DNA of 41,741 nucleotides, from NCBI GenBank assembly GCA_021730935.1, contig JAKFYJ010000072.1, positions 1-41,741 of the forward strand. Reading direction: 5' to 3'. The DNA is from Elusimicrobiota bacterium (GTDB taxonomy: Bacteria > Elusimicrobiota > Elusimicrobia > 2-02-FULL-39-32). Shown in pieces: positions 6,116 through 27,863 of this stretch. The position numbers and the translations under genes are program-made. Position 1 is the stretch's first letter. Each line of letters opens with the position of its first letter. A model generated the notes under the pieces. The model saw only the letters and a list, made by a program, of their open reading frames with translations, ran no database searches and was not told the origin of the DNA.

Positions 6116-6538
6116 ATGACGAACACTTACGAAAGCATATTTATTTGCCCAGGCGAACTGTCGGACGACAAGGTGCAGGCGGCCCTCGATAAAACGAAGG
6201 CCATCATTTCCCGCGCCGACGGAAAAATCATGACAGCGGAGCTTTGGGGCAGACGCAGGCTTGCGTATCCGATCGAACGATCGCGAGAAGGGCACTATGG
6301 CTACATGATCTTCAGCGGCCCTTCCCAAATTCCGGCAGCCTTAGACCGGCACTACCAGGTGACCGATTCTATCCTCCGGGGTCTCACGGTTAAAGTCGAT
6401 CCTCGCCATCTGGACAAAATTAAGCCTTCACTCAAGGCGCTTGAAGATGCCGCTCCCGCAGCAGCTGGAACGGAATCGGCGGCGGCCCCCGCAGCAGCGG
6501 CGGCTCCGACAGCGCAAGAACCAACTCCAACGGTTTAG
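6116..6538 (+). CDS. rpsF: 30S ribosomal protein S6
   Basis: This 140-residue protein has an S6 core (YESIFICPGELSDD, WGRRRLAYPIERSREGHY, Y..TDSILRGLTVK) over about 1-107. An alanine/proline-rich tail (about 112-140) replaces the acidic tail seen in many S6 proteins. S6 pairs with S18 in the central domain of the 30S subunit, and rpsR lies two genes downstream. Its ATG directly follows a strong promoter, suggesting a leaderless or near-leaderless mRNA. It heads rpsF-ssb-rpsR-rplI-dnaB. Confidence 0.95.
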   Translation: MTNTYESIFICPGELSDDKVQAALDKTKAIISRADGKIMTAELWGRRRLAYPIERSREGHYGYMIFSGPSQIPAALDRHYQVTDSILRGLTVKVDPRHLDKIKPSLKALEDAAPAAAGTESAAAPAAAAAPTAQEPTPTV

Positions 6539-22871: not shown

Positions 22872-22900
22872 TTGACATTTAAGGGCTTAAATAATATTAT
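22872..22900 (+). promoter_or_regulatory. Promoter of the marR-tolC operon
   Basis: A perfect -35 box TTGACA (22872-22877), a 17-base spacer and TATTAT (22895-22900) precede the gene. The ATG is 11 bases after the -10, leaving a leader of about five bases without a Shine-Dalgarno sequence. Confidence 0.8.
22877..22892 (+). promoter_or_regulatory. Putative MarR operator inside the promoter
   Basis: ATTTAAG-GG-CTTAAAT is a perfect 7+7 inverted repeat filling the spacer between the -35 and -10 boxes. Its size and place fit an autorepression site for the MarR domain encoded just downstream. Binding has not been shown. Confidence 0.55.
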
Positions 22901-22911
22901 CTTCGGACCCC

Positions 22912-24738
22912 ATGTCAGCCCAGGATTGCGAAAATTTAGGCGTTTATTACAGCCATTGCTTCGACTATGCCAAGGATCTCTATAAAAAGTTTGATCCCGC
23001 GGTCATCGGCTGTTATCTCAATTTGATCCGCACCGCCGAACTTCTTCGGACCGCTGTCGACGGCCGCATGCGCGTCCACAACCTGACCGGCCCGTCCCTC
23101 GGAATTTTAAACCTGCTCGAAGTGGCGCCCAACAAACGCCTCACCATGAACCAGATCGGGGAACAAATGCTGGTGTCTCAGCCCAATGTCACGGGGTTGG
23201 TGGACACGCTCGAAAAGCGGGGGTTCGTGGAGCGGATCAGCGATCTCAAGGACCGCAGGGTCCGGACGATCCGCATCACGAAACAAGGTTCCAAAACCAT
23301 CAGCAAAATTCTGCCCGAACACCTCCGCTTCATGCACTCGCTATTCGATAATTTTACGCAAAAGGAAATGTCTTCAATGACCCAAAAACTCTGTTCCATC
23401 CGTTCTTCCCTGGCTAAAGCCGCCGTGAGCGCCCTCATTATTCTTTCCGTCTTCAGCGTCTCCGCGCGCGCTCAAAGTTCTTCCGCTCCTCTCACGCTTT
23501 CCCAGTGTTATGACATGGCGGTCCGCAGGAGCGAAACGCTCAGAGCCAACGCGGAGGGTGTGTTTCAATTCGAACAGATGGCCCGCAAAAGCATCGGCGC
23601 CATTCTCCCGGATGTTCATTTGATTTATACGGAACAATGGCAGGACACGAGCGGCGTGGACGCCAGCGGCGGCGGCGTCAACAGCACGCTCACCCGGAGC
23701 GAGCGGCCGGAAGTCAAAATTCAGGCCCACCAGCCGATTTTTTCCGGGTTCCGCGAGTTCCACGCTTATTCCGGATTCAAATCTGAAGAGCAGCGGCAGA
23801 TTTTGATCCTTAAACACGCGTATCTCCTCCTTTATGAAGACGTCGCCGGAACTTTTTATCTTGCCCTTCAGCTCGAAAAGGATATGGAGAATACCCGCAA
23901 TATCCTGACCCTTTCCCAACAAAGGATCAATGACATGGAGTCCCGCGTTAAACTCGGAAAATCCCGTGAGAGCGAACTTCGAAGCGCCAGGTCGCAACTT
24001 TATACGCTCCAGGGCGAAGAAGAAGTCCTGAAGGGTCAGGTGGCGGTCGCGAGAGAGTCTCTCAGTTTTCTTGTGGGGGAGAGCGTCGGCTCAAGAGTCC
24101 TTGCCGACGATGTTCCTGCTTCGGCTCCGGAATCTCTTTCGCTCGTGCTGGAACATTCCCGGAAACGCAAAGATCTTCAGGCTCTGGCTCAGGCCGTGGA
24201 GAGCCGGAGACAGTCCTATAAAGTCGCGCGCGGAGCTTTTTCTCCGACCGTGGGACTCCTCGGGAATTATTATCTTAAACGCGTCGGGTTTCAGGAGCCC
24301 ATCGATTGGGACCTCCTTTTGACCGTGGACCTTCCTCTCTTCCAGGGCGGATCGAATGTGAGCGGCATGAAAATCGCGGCGTCTGAACTGAGCCAGGCGA
24401 CGCTGGAATATCAAAGATATAAAAGGTCTGTCGAATCTCTCGTGCGGAAAGCCCACATCAATCTGCAGACTGTTTTCGCTCAGATGACCGCGTTTGAAAA
24501 TGCTTTCAAGGAAGCTCAGGCAAGTTATAAATTATTGGTGAACGAATATCAGCACGGGCTCGTGAACAATCTGGATGTTCTTGCGGCTTTAAACACGCTC
24601 GAATCCACGAAGAAAGCTCTTGACCGGACTCAGGTTCAGCTGAAACTCAATTATCTGGCTCTGAAAGTGGCCAGTGAAGATCTTGAGCAGGCCGTGAACG
24701 CCGCCGAAAACTATCAATCATTGGAGCCTTTAAAATGA
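22912..24738 (+). CDS. MarR-type regulator fused in frame to a TolC-like outer-membrane efflux protein
   Basis: This 608-residue frame has two parts. Residues about 1-165 form a MarR winged-helix domain: recognition region MNQIGEQMLVSQPNVTGLV at 79-97, wing DLKDRRVRTIRIT at 111-123, then the C-terminal dimer helix. That helix runs straight into a Sec signal peptide (K159, R164, K169, hydrophobic 170-183, cleavage SARA-Q at 187-188). Residues about 190-608 are a TolC-type protein (LTLSQCYDMAVRR, two coiled-coil repeats, RAFSPTVG-like GAFSPTVGLLGNYY, DLLLTVDLPLFQGG). An internal ATG at 23377 (M156) with AAAGGA ten bases upstream could make a separate TolC-like precursor. A normal export route for the full fusion is unclear. 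The RND pump gene follows with a four-base overlap. Confidence 0.87.
   Translation: MSAQDCENLGVYYSHCFDYAKDLYKKFDPAVIGCYLNLIRTAELLRTAVDGRMRVHNLTGPSLGILNLLEVAPNKRLTMNQIGEQMLVSQPNVTGLVDTLEKRGFVERISDLKDRRVRTIRITKQGSKTISKILPEHLRFMHSLFDNFTQKEMSSMTQKLCSIRSSLAKAAVSALIILSVFSVSARAQSSSAPLTLSQCYDMAVRRSETLRANAEGVFQFEQMARKSIGAILPDVHLIYTEQWQDTSGVDASGGGVNSTLTRSERPEVKIQAHQPIFSGFREFHAYSGFKSEEQRQILILKHAYLLLYEDVAGTFYLALQLEKDMENTRNILTLSQQRINDMESRVKLGKSRESELRSARSQLYTLQGEEEVLKGQVAVARESLSFLVGESVGSRVLADDVPASAPESLSLVLEHSRKRKDLQALAQAVESRRQSYKVARGAFSPTVGLLGNYYLKRVGFQEPIDWDLLLTVDLPLFQGGSNVSGMKIAASELSQATLEYQRYKRSVESLVRKAHINLQTVFAQMTAFENAFKEAQASYKLLVNEYQHGLVNNLDVLAALNTLESTKKALDRTQVQLKLNYLALKVASEDLEQAVNAAENYQSLEPLK
23361..23366 (+). 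promoter_or_regulatory. Internal ribosome binding site for the TolC-like part
   Basis: AAAGGA lies ten bases before the in-frame ATG at 23377, which would start a protein with a complete signal peptide (MTQKLCSIRSSLAKAAVSAL). This would let one frame give both a regulator-containing form and a free TolC-like precursor. Confidence 0.45.
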
Positions 24739-27700
24739 CCTTATCCGACACCTCGATAAAAAACCCGGTTTTCGCGTGGATGCTGATGTTCGGGCTCATC
24801 CTCTTCGGATGGATCGGGTTCACCGGCATGGGGATCAGCCAGCTCCCCGACGTGGACTTTCCCATTGTCACCGTCACGGTCAACTGGGAGGGCGCCGCGC
24901 CCGAGGTGATGGAAACTGAAGTCACGGACGCGATCGAAGACGCCGTCATGCAGGTGCAGGGGATCAAGGAAGTGTCATCAAGCTCCCGCCAGGGCAACGC
25001 CACCATCACGATCGAGTTTGAGCTGGGCCGCGACATCGACGCCGCGCTCCAGGAAGTGCAGACCAAAATCGCGCAGGCGCAGAGAATTTTGCCTCGCGAA
25101 ATTGATCCCCCGATCGTCAACAAAGTGAATCCTGAAGACAACCCCATCATGTGGCTGGCCCTTTCGGGAGACAAGCCCCTCAGAGAACTCATGGAATACA
25201 CCAAAGATCACCTCAAGGACCAGTTCACCACGGTCCCCGGAGTGGGAGAGGTTTTTCTGGGCGGATACATTGAGCCCAACCTCCGCGTGTGGCTGAACGC
25301 AGAGAAAATGAAGTCGCGGGAACTGACCGTGGACGATGTCATGGACGCGATCGGCTCAGAGCACAGCGAAGTCCCTGCCGGGCGCATCGAAACGTCCCAG
25401 AAAGAAATGAACGTCCGCGTCATGGGGGAGGCCTCTTCCATTGAAGAGTTCGGGAACATCGTGATCCCCGGCCGCAGAGGGTCTCCGATTTGGCGGACAT
25501 TCAGGATCAAGGATGTCGCGAGCATCGAAGACGGATTGGCGGATATCCGGAGAATTTCCCGAGTGCTTGGGAAGCCTGCGGTGGGCCTGGGAATCAAGAA
25601 ACAGCGCGGAACGAATTCAGTGGCGGTGGGGCGGGCCGTCAAGAAACGAATGGAAGAAATTCAGAAAACTTTGCCCGAAGGCCTCAAACTCGGAGTGAAT
25701 TTTGACAGCACGAAATTCATCGAAGATTCAACGCACGAGCTCAATTTCACCCTGGTGCTTTCGGCTCTCCTCACCTCCGTGGTCTGCTGGCTCTTTTTGG
25801 GGTCCTGGAGTTCGACGGTCAACATCATTTTTGCGATCCCGACCTCCATCATCGGATCTTTCTTCATTCTCAATCTGCTCGGGTTCACCTTAAACACATT
25901 CACCCTCCTGGGGCTTTCTCTCGCCATCGGGATCGTGGTGGACGACGCCATCATGGTGCTGGAAAACATTGTGAGATATCGCGAGCAGGGGCTTTCCCGC
26001 GTGAAAGCCGCCATCGTGGGAGCCCGCGAAATCACGTTTGCCGCCATGGCCGCGAGCATCGCGATCCTGGCGATCTTTGTCCCGGTCGTGTTCATGAAAG
26101 GGATCATGGGAAAATTCTTCTTTCAGTTCGGCATCACCATGTCGGTTGCCGTTCTCCTCTCCCTGCTGGAGGCTCTGACGCTCGCGCCCATGCGCTGTTC
26201 TCAGTTCCTTGAAGTGGGGCACAACACCTGGATCGGGCGCAAGATGGATTCTCTCACGGAGTGGCTGAAGGTAAAATATGAGGCGTCCCTCGCGGTCTGT
26301 CTCAACTGGCGCTGGACTGTCGTGATCGTTTCCATCCTTTTCTTCGTCGGCTCAATTCAGTTCGCTAAAATCATAAAAAAAGAATTCGTTCCCGCGCAGG
26401 ACCAGAGCATGTTTATGCTGAGGATGCAGACCCCGATCGGCTCTTCCCTCCAATTCACCGACACTCAATTCAGAAAAGCCGAAGAAGCGATCATGAAATA
26501 CGGGGAGGTCAACCGATATTACGGCGCCATCGGAGGTTTTGGCGGCGGCGAAGTGGACACGGGCATGATGTTTGTCACGCTCAAACAGCCCAAGGACCGC
26601 CCGATCGATTCCAAGAAAAACCGCGCGCTCACCCAGCAGGAATTCATGGAAGTGGTCCGCAATGACCTCAAGGGCATTCAGGGGTTCAGAAAAGTGATCC
26701 CGCAAGACCTTTCTCTTTCCGGGTTCACTTCCCAGAGAGGGTTCCCGATTGAGTTCACGATCCGCGGGGAGAACTGGGAAAAGCTGGCAGACCTGAGCCA
26801 GGAGCTCACCAAAAAAATGGAAGAGTCCGGAACAGTCACCGGCGTTGACAGCGATTATCGCGCCGGCGTCCAGGAAGTGCGCGTCATTCCAAACCGAACG
26901 AAAGCCGCGGGCCGGGGCGTCAGCATTTCGAGCATCGGCAACGCCATCAACGCCATGATCGGCGGTCTCCGCGTCGGAAAATATACCAAAGCCGGAAAAC
27001 GATATGACATCCGTGTCCGCCTCGTCGGAGACGAACGCAACCGTCCGGACGACATCACCAACATTTGGGTGCGCAACAACCGCGGCGAAGTGATCCCTCT
27101 CTCCGACGTTGTGGAAATCAAGGAAAAACCTTCACTGCTTTCCATCACCCGCAGGAACCGCGAGCGGTCCATCAGCATTTTCGCCAACATCGCTCAGGGA
27201 AAATCCCAGTCTGAAGCCCTGGCCGCCGTGGAAAAGATAGGGAAGGATGTTTTGCCTCAGGGATACCGGATCGTTTGGTCCGGAAGCGCTCAAACATTCA
27301 AGGAGTCCGGCCAATCTCTGATGTTCGCGATGATCATCGGAATCCTCGTGGCCTACATGATCCTGGGCGCCCAGTTCAACAGTTTCATCCAGCCCATCTC
27401 GGTCCTGATGGCGCTTCCTTTCAGCGTGACCGGCGCGTTCATTGCTCTCTGGCTGACCGGAAAATCCCTCAACATGTACAGCATGATCGGCATCATTCTG
27501 CTTATGGGCATCGTCAAGAAAAATTCCATCCTCCTGGTGGATTTCACGAACGAGCGCAGGAAACTTGGGAAAAATGTGCGCGACGCGCTCCTTGAAGCCT
27601 GCCCCGTGCGTTTGAGGCCCATCATCATGACCAGCGTTTCCACCATCGCCGCGGCCGTGCCTCCCGCCCTCGCGTTGGGCCCCGGCGCCGAGTCCCGCAT

Positions 27701-27863
27701 CCCCATGGCGATGGTCGTCATCGGCGGTGTGACGGTTTCCACTTTCCTGACTTTGTTTGTCGTCCCCTGCGTTTACAGCCTGCTTTCCCGCTTTGAAAGC
27801 ACCGCGCACAAAGACGACCTTCACGAAGCGCTGGTTGAACTGGGCGAAATTCATTCGGCGTGA
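24735..27863 (+). CDS. RND-family multidrug efflux pump (AcrB-like, HAE-1/HAE-2 type)
   Basis: This 1042-residue inner-membrane pump has the standard RND layout. TM1 (about 13-32) is followed by a large periplasmic porter domain, TM2-6 with the proton-relay pair D403-D404 in IGIVVDDAIMVLENIVR, a second porter domain (about 560-860) and TM8-12 ending near 1020. The N-terminal SIKNPVFAWMLM and QLPDVDFPIVTV segments are typical. It forms a trimer with a TolC-like channel, here encoded directly upstream. The expected periplasmic adaptor is not encoded in this operon. The GTG of the next gene overlaps its stop by four bases. Confidence 0.95.
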   Translation: MTLSDTSIKNPVFAWMLMFGLILFGWIGFTGMGISQLPDVDFPIVTVTVNWEGAAPEVMETEVTDAIEDAVMQVQGIKEVSSSSRQGNATITIEFELGRDIDAALQEVQTKIAQAQRILPREIDPPIVNKVNPEDNPIMWLALSGDKPLRELMEYTKDHLKDQFTTVPGVGEVFLGGYIEPNLRVWLNAEKMKSRELTVDDVMDAIGSEHSEVPAGRIETSQKEMNVRVMGEASSIEEFGNIVIPGRRGSPIWRTFRIKDVASIEDGLADIRRISRVLGKPAVGLGIKKQRGTNSVAVGRAVKKRMEEIQKTLPEGLKLGVNFDSTKFIEDSTHELNFTLVLSALLTSVVCWLFLGSWSSTVNIIFAIPTSIIGSFFILNLLGFTLNTFTLLGLSLAIGIVVDDAIMVLENIVRYREQGLSRVKAAIVGAREITFAAMAASIAILAIFVPVVFMKGIMGKFFFQFGITMSVAVLLSLLEALTLAPMRCSQFLEVGHNTWIGRKMDSLTEWLKVKYEASLAVCLNWRWTVVIVSILFFVGSIQFAKIIKKEFVPAQDQSMFMLRMQTPIGSSLQFTDTQFRKAEEAIMKYGEVNRYYGAIGGFGGGEVDTGMMFVTLKQPKDRPIDSKKNRALTQQEFMEVVRNDLKGIQGFRKVIPQDLSLSGFTSQRGFPIEFTIRGENWEKLADLSQELTKKMEESGTVTGVDSDYRAGVQEVRVIPNRTKAAGRGVSISSIGNAINAMIGGLRVGKYTKAGKRYDIRVRLVGDERNRPDDITNIWVRNNRGEVIPLSDVVEIKEKPSLLSITRRNRERSISIFANIAQGKSQSEALAAVEKIGKDVLPQGYRIVWSGSAQTFKESGQSLMFAMIIGILVAYMILGAQFNSFIQPISVLMALPFSVTGAFIALWLTGKSLNMYSMIGIILLMGIVKKNSILLVDFTNERRKLGKNVRDALLEACPVRLRPIIMTSVSTIAAAVPPALALGPGAESRIPMAMVVIGGVTVSTFLTLFVVPCVYSLLSRFESTAHKDDLHEALVELGEIHSA

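Follow-up and report, generated by a model that had tools for sequence, protein, structure and literature searches.

A MarR-type regulator and a TolC-type outer-membrane channel encoded in one open reading frame in Elusimicrobiota

The stretch of DNA analysed here, called the window, comprises 41,741 nucleotides of contig JAKFYJ010000072.1 from an Elusimicrobiota bacterium (assembly GCA_021730935.1). Positions 22912 to 24738 of its forward strand form a single open frame of 608 amino acids, with an ATG at 22912, a stop codon at 24736-24738 and no internal stops. The frame was found once in a search of the host genome. It encodes a MarR winged-helix repressor domain (residues 1-167, 22912-23412), a predicted signal peptide that overlaps the end of this domain (residues 156-187, 23377-23472), and a mature TolC-type outer-membrane efflux channel (OEP; residues 188-608, 23473-24735). 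An RND efflux permease gene (24735-27863, forward strand; ACR_tran, E 2e-283) follows the fusion gene with a 4-nt overlap, ATGA, and thus the OEP and RND parts of a tripartite efflux operon stand together. No periplasmic adaptor was recognised near the OEP-RND pair, either in the window or in relatives (L055, L056, L057, L059, L060); four HlyD_D23 matches, representing adaptor-like genes, occur elsewhere in the host genome.

Both parts of the chain score well above curated Pfam cut-offs. The MarR_2/MarR match covers residues 56-117 (E 7e-13), with 49 bits for PF12802 (cut-off 27) and 44.6 bits for PF01047 (cut-off 24.6), and PF02321 matches the channel part in two stretches (E 6e-44). In a full-length AF2 model the channel part takes the TolC fold (Foldseek match to TolC, E 3e-20). 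That model is weak over the MarR part, with pLDDT of about 40-60, and residues 1-188 were therefore modelled separately with 41 MarRs. The resulting model (pLDDT 93) shows a complete winged-helix MarR fold with its wing, followed by C-terminal dimer helices at residues 124-144 and from residue 150 to 187, and its Foldseek matches include MftR, YetL, HpaR, MexR and MepR. Residues T94, D114, R116 and G126 are invariant across the 41 aligned MarRs, and by this alignment the DNA-binding residues are kept. The original prediction of one continuous frame, with no stop or change of frame before a complete TolC-like protein, is therefore borne out in each of its parts. A free MarR is a cytoplasmic protein of about 140-180 residues with its own stop codon, whereas the MarR of the window lacks a stop and runs into the OEP. 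Among the MarR homologues examined, only this fusion and the two described below continue into another protein; the rest stop soon after the domain.

The junction appears in the model of residues 1-188 as one unbroken helix, residues 150-187 (23359-23472), in which the last MarR dimer helix runs on into the signal peptide. Most of the 40 MarRs aligned with it stop near residue 167 to 171. MarR homology extends to about residue 167, and the hydrophobic core begins two or three residues further on, leaving an overlap between MarR and signal peptide of about 12 residues (156-167). The dimer helix had been placed at residues 145-169; its merging with the signal peptide stands, but the model starts the helix near residue 150, and homology to MarR ends about residue 167. 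The accompanying proposal that the last MarR helix doubles as the n-region of the signal peptide is supported by the continuity of the modelled helix. The h-region spans about residues 170-183, and an A-X-A site follows the core at 185-187, with cleavage predicted after A187 (ARA, then QSS). Such sites, or their equivalents, lie downstream of the h-region in all three fusions. In comparison with 42 signals of unfused OEPs, the h-region hydrophobicity of the window chain, 1.98, falls in the upper eighth, and that of one of the other fusions (G029), 1.68, is average. An extra-hydrophobic anchor in place of a signal peptide, suggested at first, was dropped after this comparison. Apart from its position at residues 156-187 rather than at the N-terminus of the frame, the signal peptide is ordinary in hydrophobicity and in its A-X-A site. 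Because the h-region is normal for OEP signals of the phylum, cleavage is to be expected more than anchoring. The host genome contains a gene for signal peptidase I.

Residues 1-188 were used as a query against 341 Elusimicrobiota genomes. Including the window genome, three of the 341 carry the fusion; in two further species, G217 and G029, the MarR frame runs on beyond 600 residues (643 aa at L096:9206-11137 and 654 aa on the minus strand at L097:11365-13329, respectively). Both belong to one genus, placed in another family of the same class as the window genome. Their gene order repeats that of the window: MarR, a last helix leading straight into a signal peptide, OEP, and then the RND gene with the ATGA overlap. 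When G217 is compared with G029, synonymous sites are at or near saturation, but dN amounts to about 0.33 for MarR, 0.20 for residues 155-174 (80% identical) and 0.30 for OEP. Such low dN across the junction indicates that the frame is translated and constrained there and that both halves are kept. Occurrence of the one-frame fusion in two species of another family effectively excludes a sequencing error or a one-strain freak. Both of these fusions have a divergently oriented neighbour gene (L096:5891-9046, L097:13369-16755) that codes for about 1050-1130 aa, and its product by eye resembles a fusion of a membrane metalloprotease with a subtilisin-like protease.

Across the phylum, marR and the OEP gene are ordinarily separate. 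At about a dozen loci marR directly precedes an OEP gene, mostly with the TGA of marR inside the ATG of the OEP. Two-gene relatives with a stop codon at this point had been named beforehand as the finding that would reduce the fusion to an error or a peculiarity of one strain; such Elusimicrobiota exist, but two species of another family share the fusion. Same-genus relatives have the same locus, and MarR was not found there. G002 keeps the gene order of the window (DsbD-like, DUF255 thioredoxin, OEP, RND) with no MarR in between. A search with residues 1-188 found no related MarR in G001-G008, genomes that are 72-98% complete, and one is also lacking in other members of the family. The OEP of same-genus G001 is split into two overlapping frames (L056:158-1521), through either a frameshift or an assembly error. 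A gene that is TetR-like by eye, not MarR, directly precedes or overlaps the OEP-RND pair in genus g21 of family f8 (L061:326-940, L064:4145-4840, L065:7837-8487); the regulator differs while the pump stays. Long frames over other Elusimicrobiota OEPs, among those scanned with Pfam, contained OEP only, and inspection by eye recognised no MarR upstream of the OEP relatives of the G029 type. The search for long MarR frames covered the 341 Elusimicrobiota genomes and 399 Pseudomonadota genomes. Long Pseudomonadota frames over MarR homologues, in those fetched, carried MarR at the C-terminal end with no downstream fusion. A tblastn read-through that resembled a MarR-OEP fusion on the Pseudomonas plasmid CP136011 proved to be two annotated genes.

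The MarR domains of the three fusions form one clade among 52 MarRs (SH-aLRT 96). Their channels do not follow this grouping. The OEP of the window has the OEP of same-genus G002 as its sister (support 100), whereas those of G217 and G029 sit on a very long branch far from it, with unfused proteins as the relatives found by search, and the RND proteins of G029 and G217 fall in a clade distant from that of the window. One MarR lineage has therefore been joined to two unrelated OEPs. This repeated joining suggests that the fusion is in use and not accidental. The TTGAC and AAATAATAT of the window promoter, set apart by a spacer, are common to G002 and G001, and as judged from these sequences the lineage of the window most likely acquired MarR at the head of a resident OEP gene, behind a resident promoter. 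Loss of MarR from the same-genus relatives is a possible alternative.

A scan placed this promoter at 22872-22900 on the forward strand (11 of 12 matches), with a -35 box TTGACA at 22872-22877, a 17-nt spacer and a -10 box TATTAT at 22895-22900. The same layout precedes the G217 and G029 fusions and the unfused OEP genes of G002 and G001. The window promoter ends 11 nt before the ATG at 22912, which probably leaves the mRNA almost without a leader. In all three fusions TTGAYA-17-TANNAT lies with its end 6-11 nt upstream of the ATG, and none has a convincing Shine-Dalgarno sequence at its start; taken together, these features make leaderless or nearly leaderless translation probable. The start codons of several genes of the window (at 6116, 19132 and 22912) lack a Shine-Dalgarno and follow a TATAAT-like box at a distance of 6-11 nt, which would fit a host genome with many leaderless mRNAs. 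Between the -35 and -10 boxes of the fusion gene lies an inverted repeat, TTTAAG-GG-CTTAAA(TAA), at 22878-22894. The pattern TTWA-N4-TTAARTAA recurs in the spacer of all three fusions in the same register, and in the three fusion genomes the combined promoter-operator pattern matches perfectly at a single place, the fusion operon. The repeat is missing from the promoters of the same-genus G002 and G001, which lack MarR. It fits a local MarR operator, although a putative one, as the pattern was noticed post hoc, comprises three sites and is partly the promoter sequence itself.

The reading we prefer, at a probability of roughly one half, is that the gene encodes a polyprotein, translated whole, inserted by Sec and cleaved after A187, with a membrane-held MarR repressing its own operon. 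Since the MarR part lacks a stop codon, any MarR product must start as the full chain, and since its DNA-binding residues are conserved, that chain is presumably made and used. We infer the following course of events. The operon would be transcribed from its own promoter into an mRNA almost without a leader, and translation from the ATG at 22912 would give one chain of 608 aa. The MarR domain would fold in the cytoplasm, while the signal peptide, with the end of the last MarR helix as its n-region, would enter the Sec translocon with the N-terminus kept cytoplasmic. Signal peptidase I would then cut after A187 and the channel would proceed to the outer membrane. The MarR dimer would remain at the cytoplasmic side of the inner membrane, anchored through the signal-peptide helices or set free at a later stage, and would repress its own operon through the inverted repeat in the promoter spacer until a pump substrate lifted the repression. 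Counted against this polyprotein is that a folded domain of about 155 aa before a cleavable Sec signal is unusual, that the same-genus species manage without MarR, and that an internal ATG in the window, with a fair ribosome-binding site, could yield the channel with no cleavage at all. A more speculative extension, which we regard as doubtful, makes export itself the regulatory event: cleavage, possibly with later removal of the stub, would set the place and amount of active MarR, and the repressor would count delivered channels one to one.

The internal ATG is the basis of the strongest competing explanation, in which the two proteins would come from nested in-frame genes. Most of the channel would start at M156 in the window, or at a TTG (L155) in G217 and G029, and a scarcer long chain, cut or not, would serve as the regulator. 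As the original prediction stated, the ATG at 23377-23379 has an upstream ribosome-binding site, AAAAGGAA at 23360-23367, 9 nt away, and a chain begun there would have a signal peptide of normal length. The codons aligned to M156 in the two other fusions are both TTG, with purine-rich AAAGAGAG and CAAGGAAG 7-8 nt before them. However, an equally strong upstream site is found at about 10% of 158 internal ATGs in genes of the window, and the purine-rich stretch encodes K-E of the MarR helix in any case. Neither G029 nor G217 has an ATG or GTG at this place, and two TTGs are weak evidence for a start because TTG makes up 12-17% of their Leu codons. From its sequence context, M156 is thus a possible internal start in the window, one that is not conserved as ATG. 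Its use may add channel, but MarR can still come only from the long chain. Cleavage of the full chain and separate initiation, offered earlier as two mechanisms to choose between, are accordingly unequal: MarR, with no stop, needs the full chain, and the internal ATG is missing from G029 and G217. We consider the nested arrangement rather unlikely.

Less probable still is that the fusion is translated and exported with MarR as a passenger that regulates little or nothing, the two neighbouring genes having merged in a lineage-specific and tolerated way. Its restriction to 3 of 341 genomes would fit, as would the lack of a related MarR in same-genus G001 and G002 and in other family members. Against this, the MarR residues and fold are kept, the MarR half of G217 and G029 is about as constrained as the OEP half, and the joining is seen with two unrelated OEP-RND operons. 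An uncut signal peptide would leave the chain in the inner membrane as a regulator like ToxR or CadC with a periplasmic part derived from a channel, and the topology (N-terminus in, one helix, C-terminus out) matches that layout. We hold this to be very improbable, given the A-X-A or equivalent sites in all three fusions, an h-region ordinary for cleaved OEP signals, and an OEP part that is complete yet would not reach the outer membrane. Hardly credible, finally, is an artefact of sequencing or assembly that removed the marR stop or shifted the frame. The source is a metagenome-assembled genome, many relatives have separate genes, and a TGA in the +1 frame overlaps the ATG at 23377; but the same fusion occurs in two other assemblies and the flanking gene order equals that of G002. 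A frame error with the marR stop at that TGA was rejected, as MarR would then be cut within its last helix, which the frame in use completes, in line with 40 other MarRs.

Few components of multidrug efflux have been studied as thoroughly as MarR repressors and TolC channels, which act in separate cellular compartments. We found no description of a MarR-OEP fusion in the literature, mainly open-access, in agreement with the earlier remark that none was known. If the polyprotein reading is true, the gene is a clear example from bacteria of maturation in which a single chain gives both a regulator and an exported protein; the same helix would act as dimer interface and as export signal, and the ratio of regulator to channel would be fixed at one to one. 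The fusion would also put to the test whether a cleavable Sec signal tolerates a cytoplasmic domain in front of it.

The nearest counterparts are the separate marR-oep(-RND) operons of Elusimicrobiota (L086, L081, L095, L080, L083, L042). There, as in the fusion, MarR directly precedes a TolC-type channel and ends where the signal peptide begins. Unlike the fusion, these operons have a marR stop and an OEP start of their own in different frames and would yield two products by coupled translation. Known MarR repressors of efflux operons include MexR (mexAB-oprM), MepR (mepA) and EmrR (emrAB). They share with the fusion a winged-helix MarR adjoining efflux genes and an operator over the promoter, and MexR and MepR are among the Foldseek matches reported above; to our knowledge, however, these regulators are free cytoplasmic dimers and never part of a pump protein. 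ToxR and CadC resemble the fusion in having an N-terminal cytoplasmic winged helix, a single membrane helix and an exported C-terminal part. Their helix is not a cleavable signal, their exported part is a sensor and not an outer-membrane channel, and their DNA-binding domain is of the OmpR type, whereas the fusion combines a MarR domain, a predicted cleavable signal and an outer-membrane channel, with no OmpR-type domain detected in the chain by Pfam. The FbcH polyprotein of Bradyrhizobium japonicum is split by signal peptidase into cytochromes b and c1. Its two halves are both respiratory, and neither is a regulator or an outer-membrane protein. It nonetheless resembles the fusion, which is known from sequence, as a single chain that holds two proteins and, between them, an internal signal peptide. 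FbcH is parted there, and the Elusimicrobiota chain probably has to be cut there as well, to give the cell a repressor and a channel separately.
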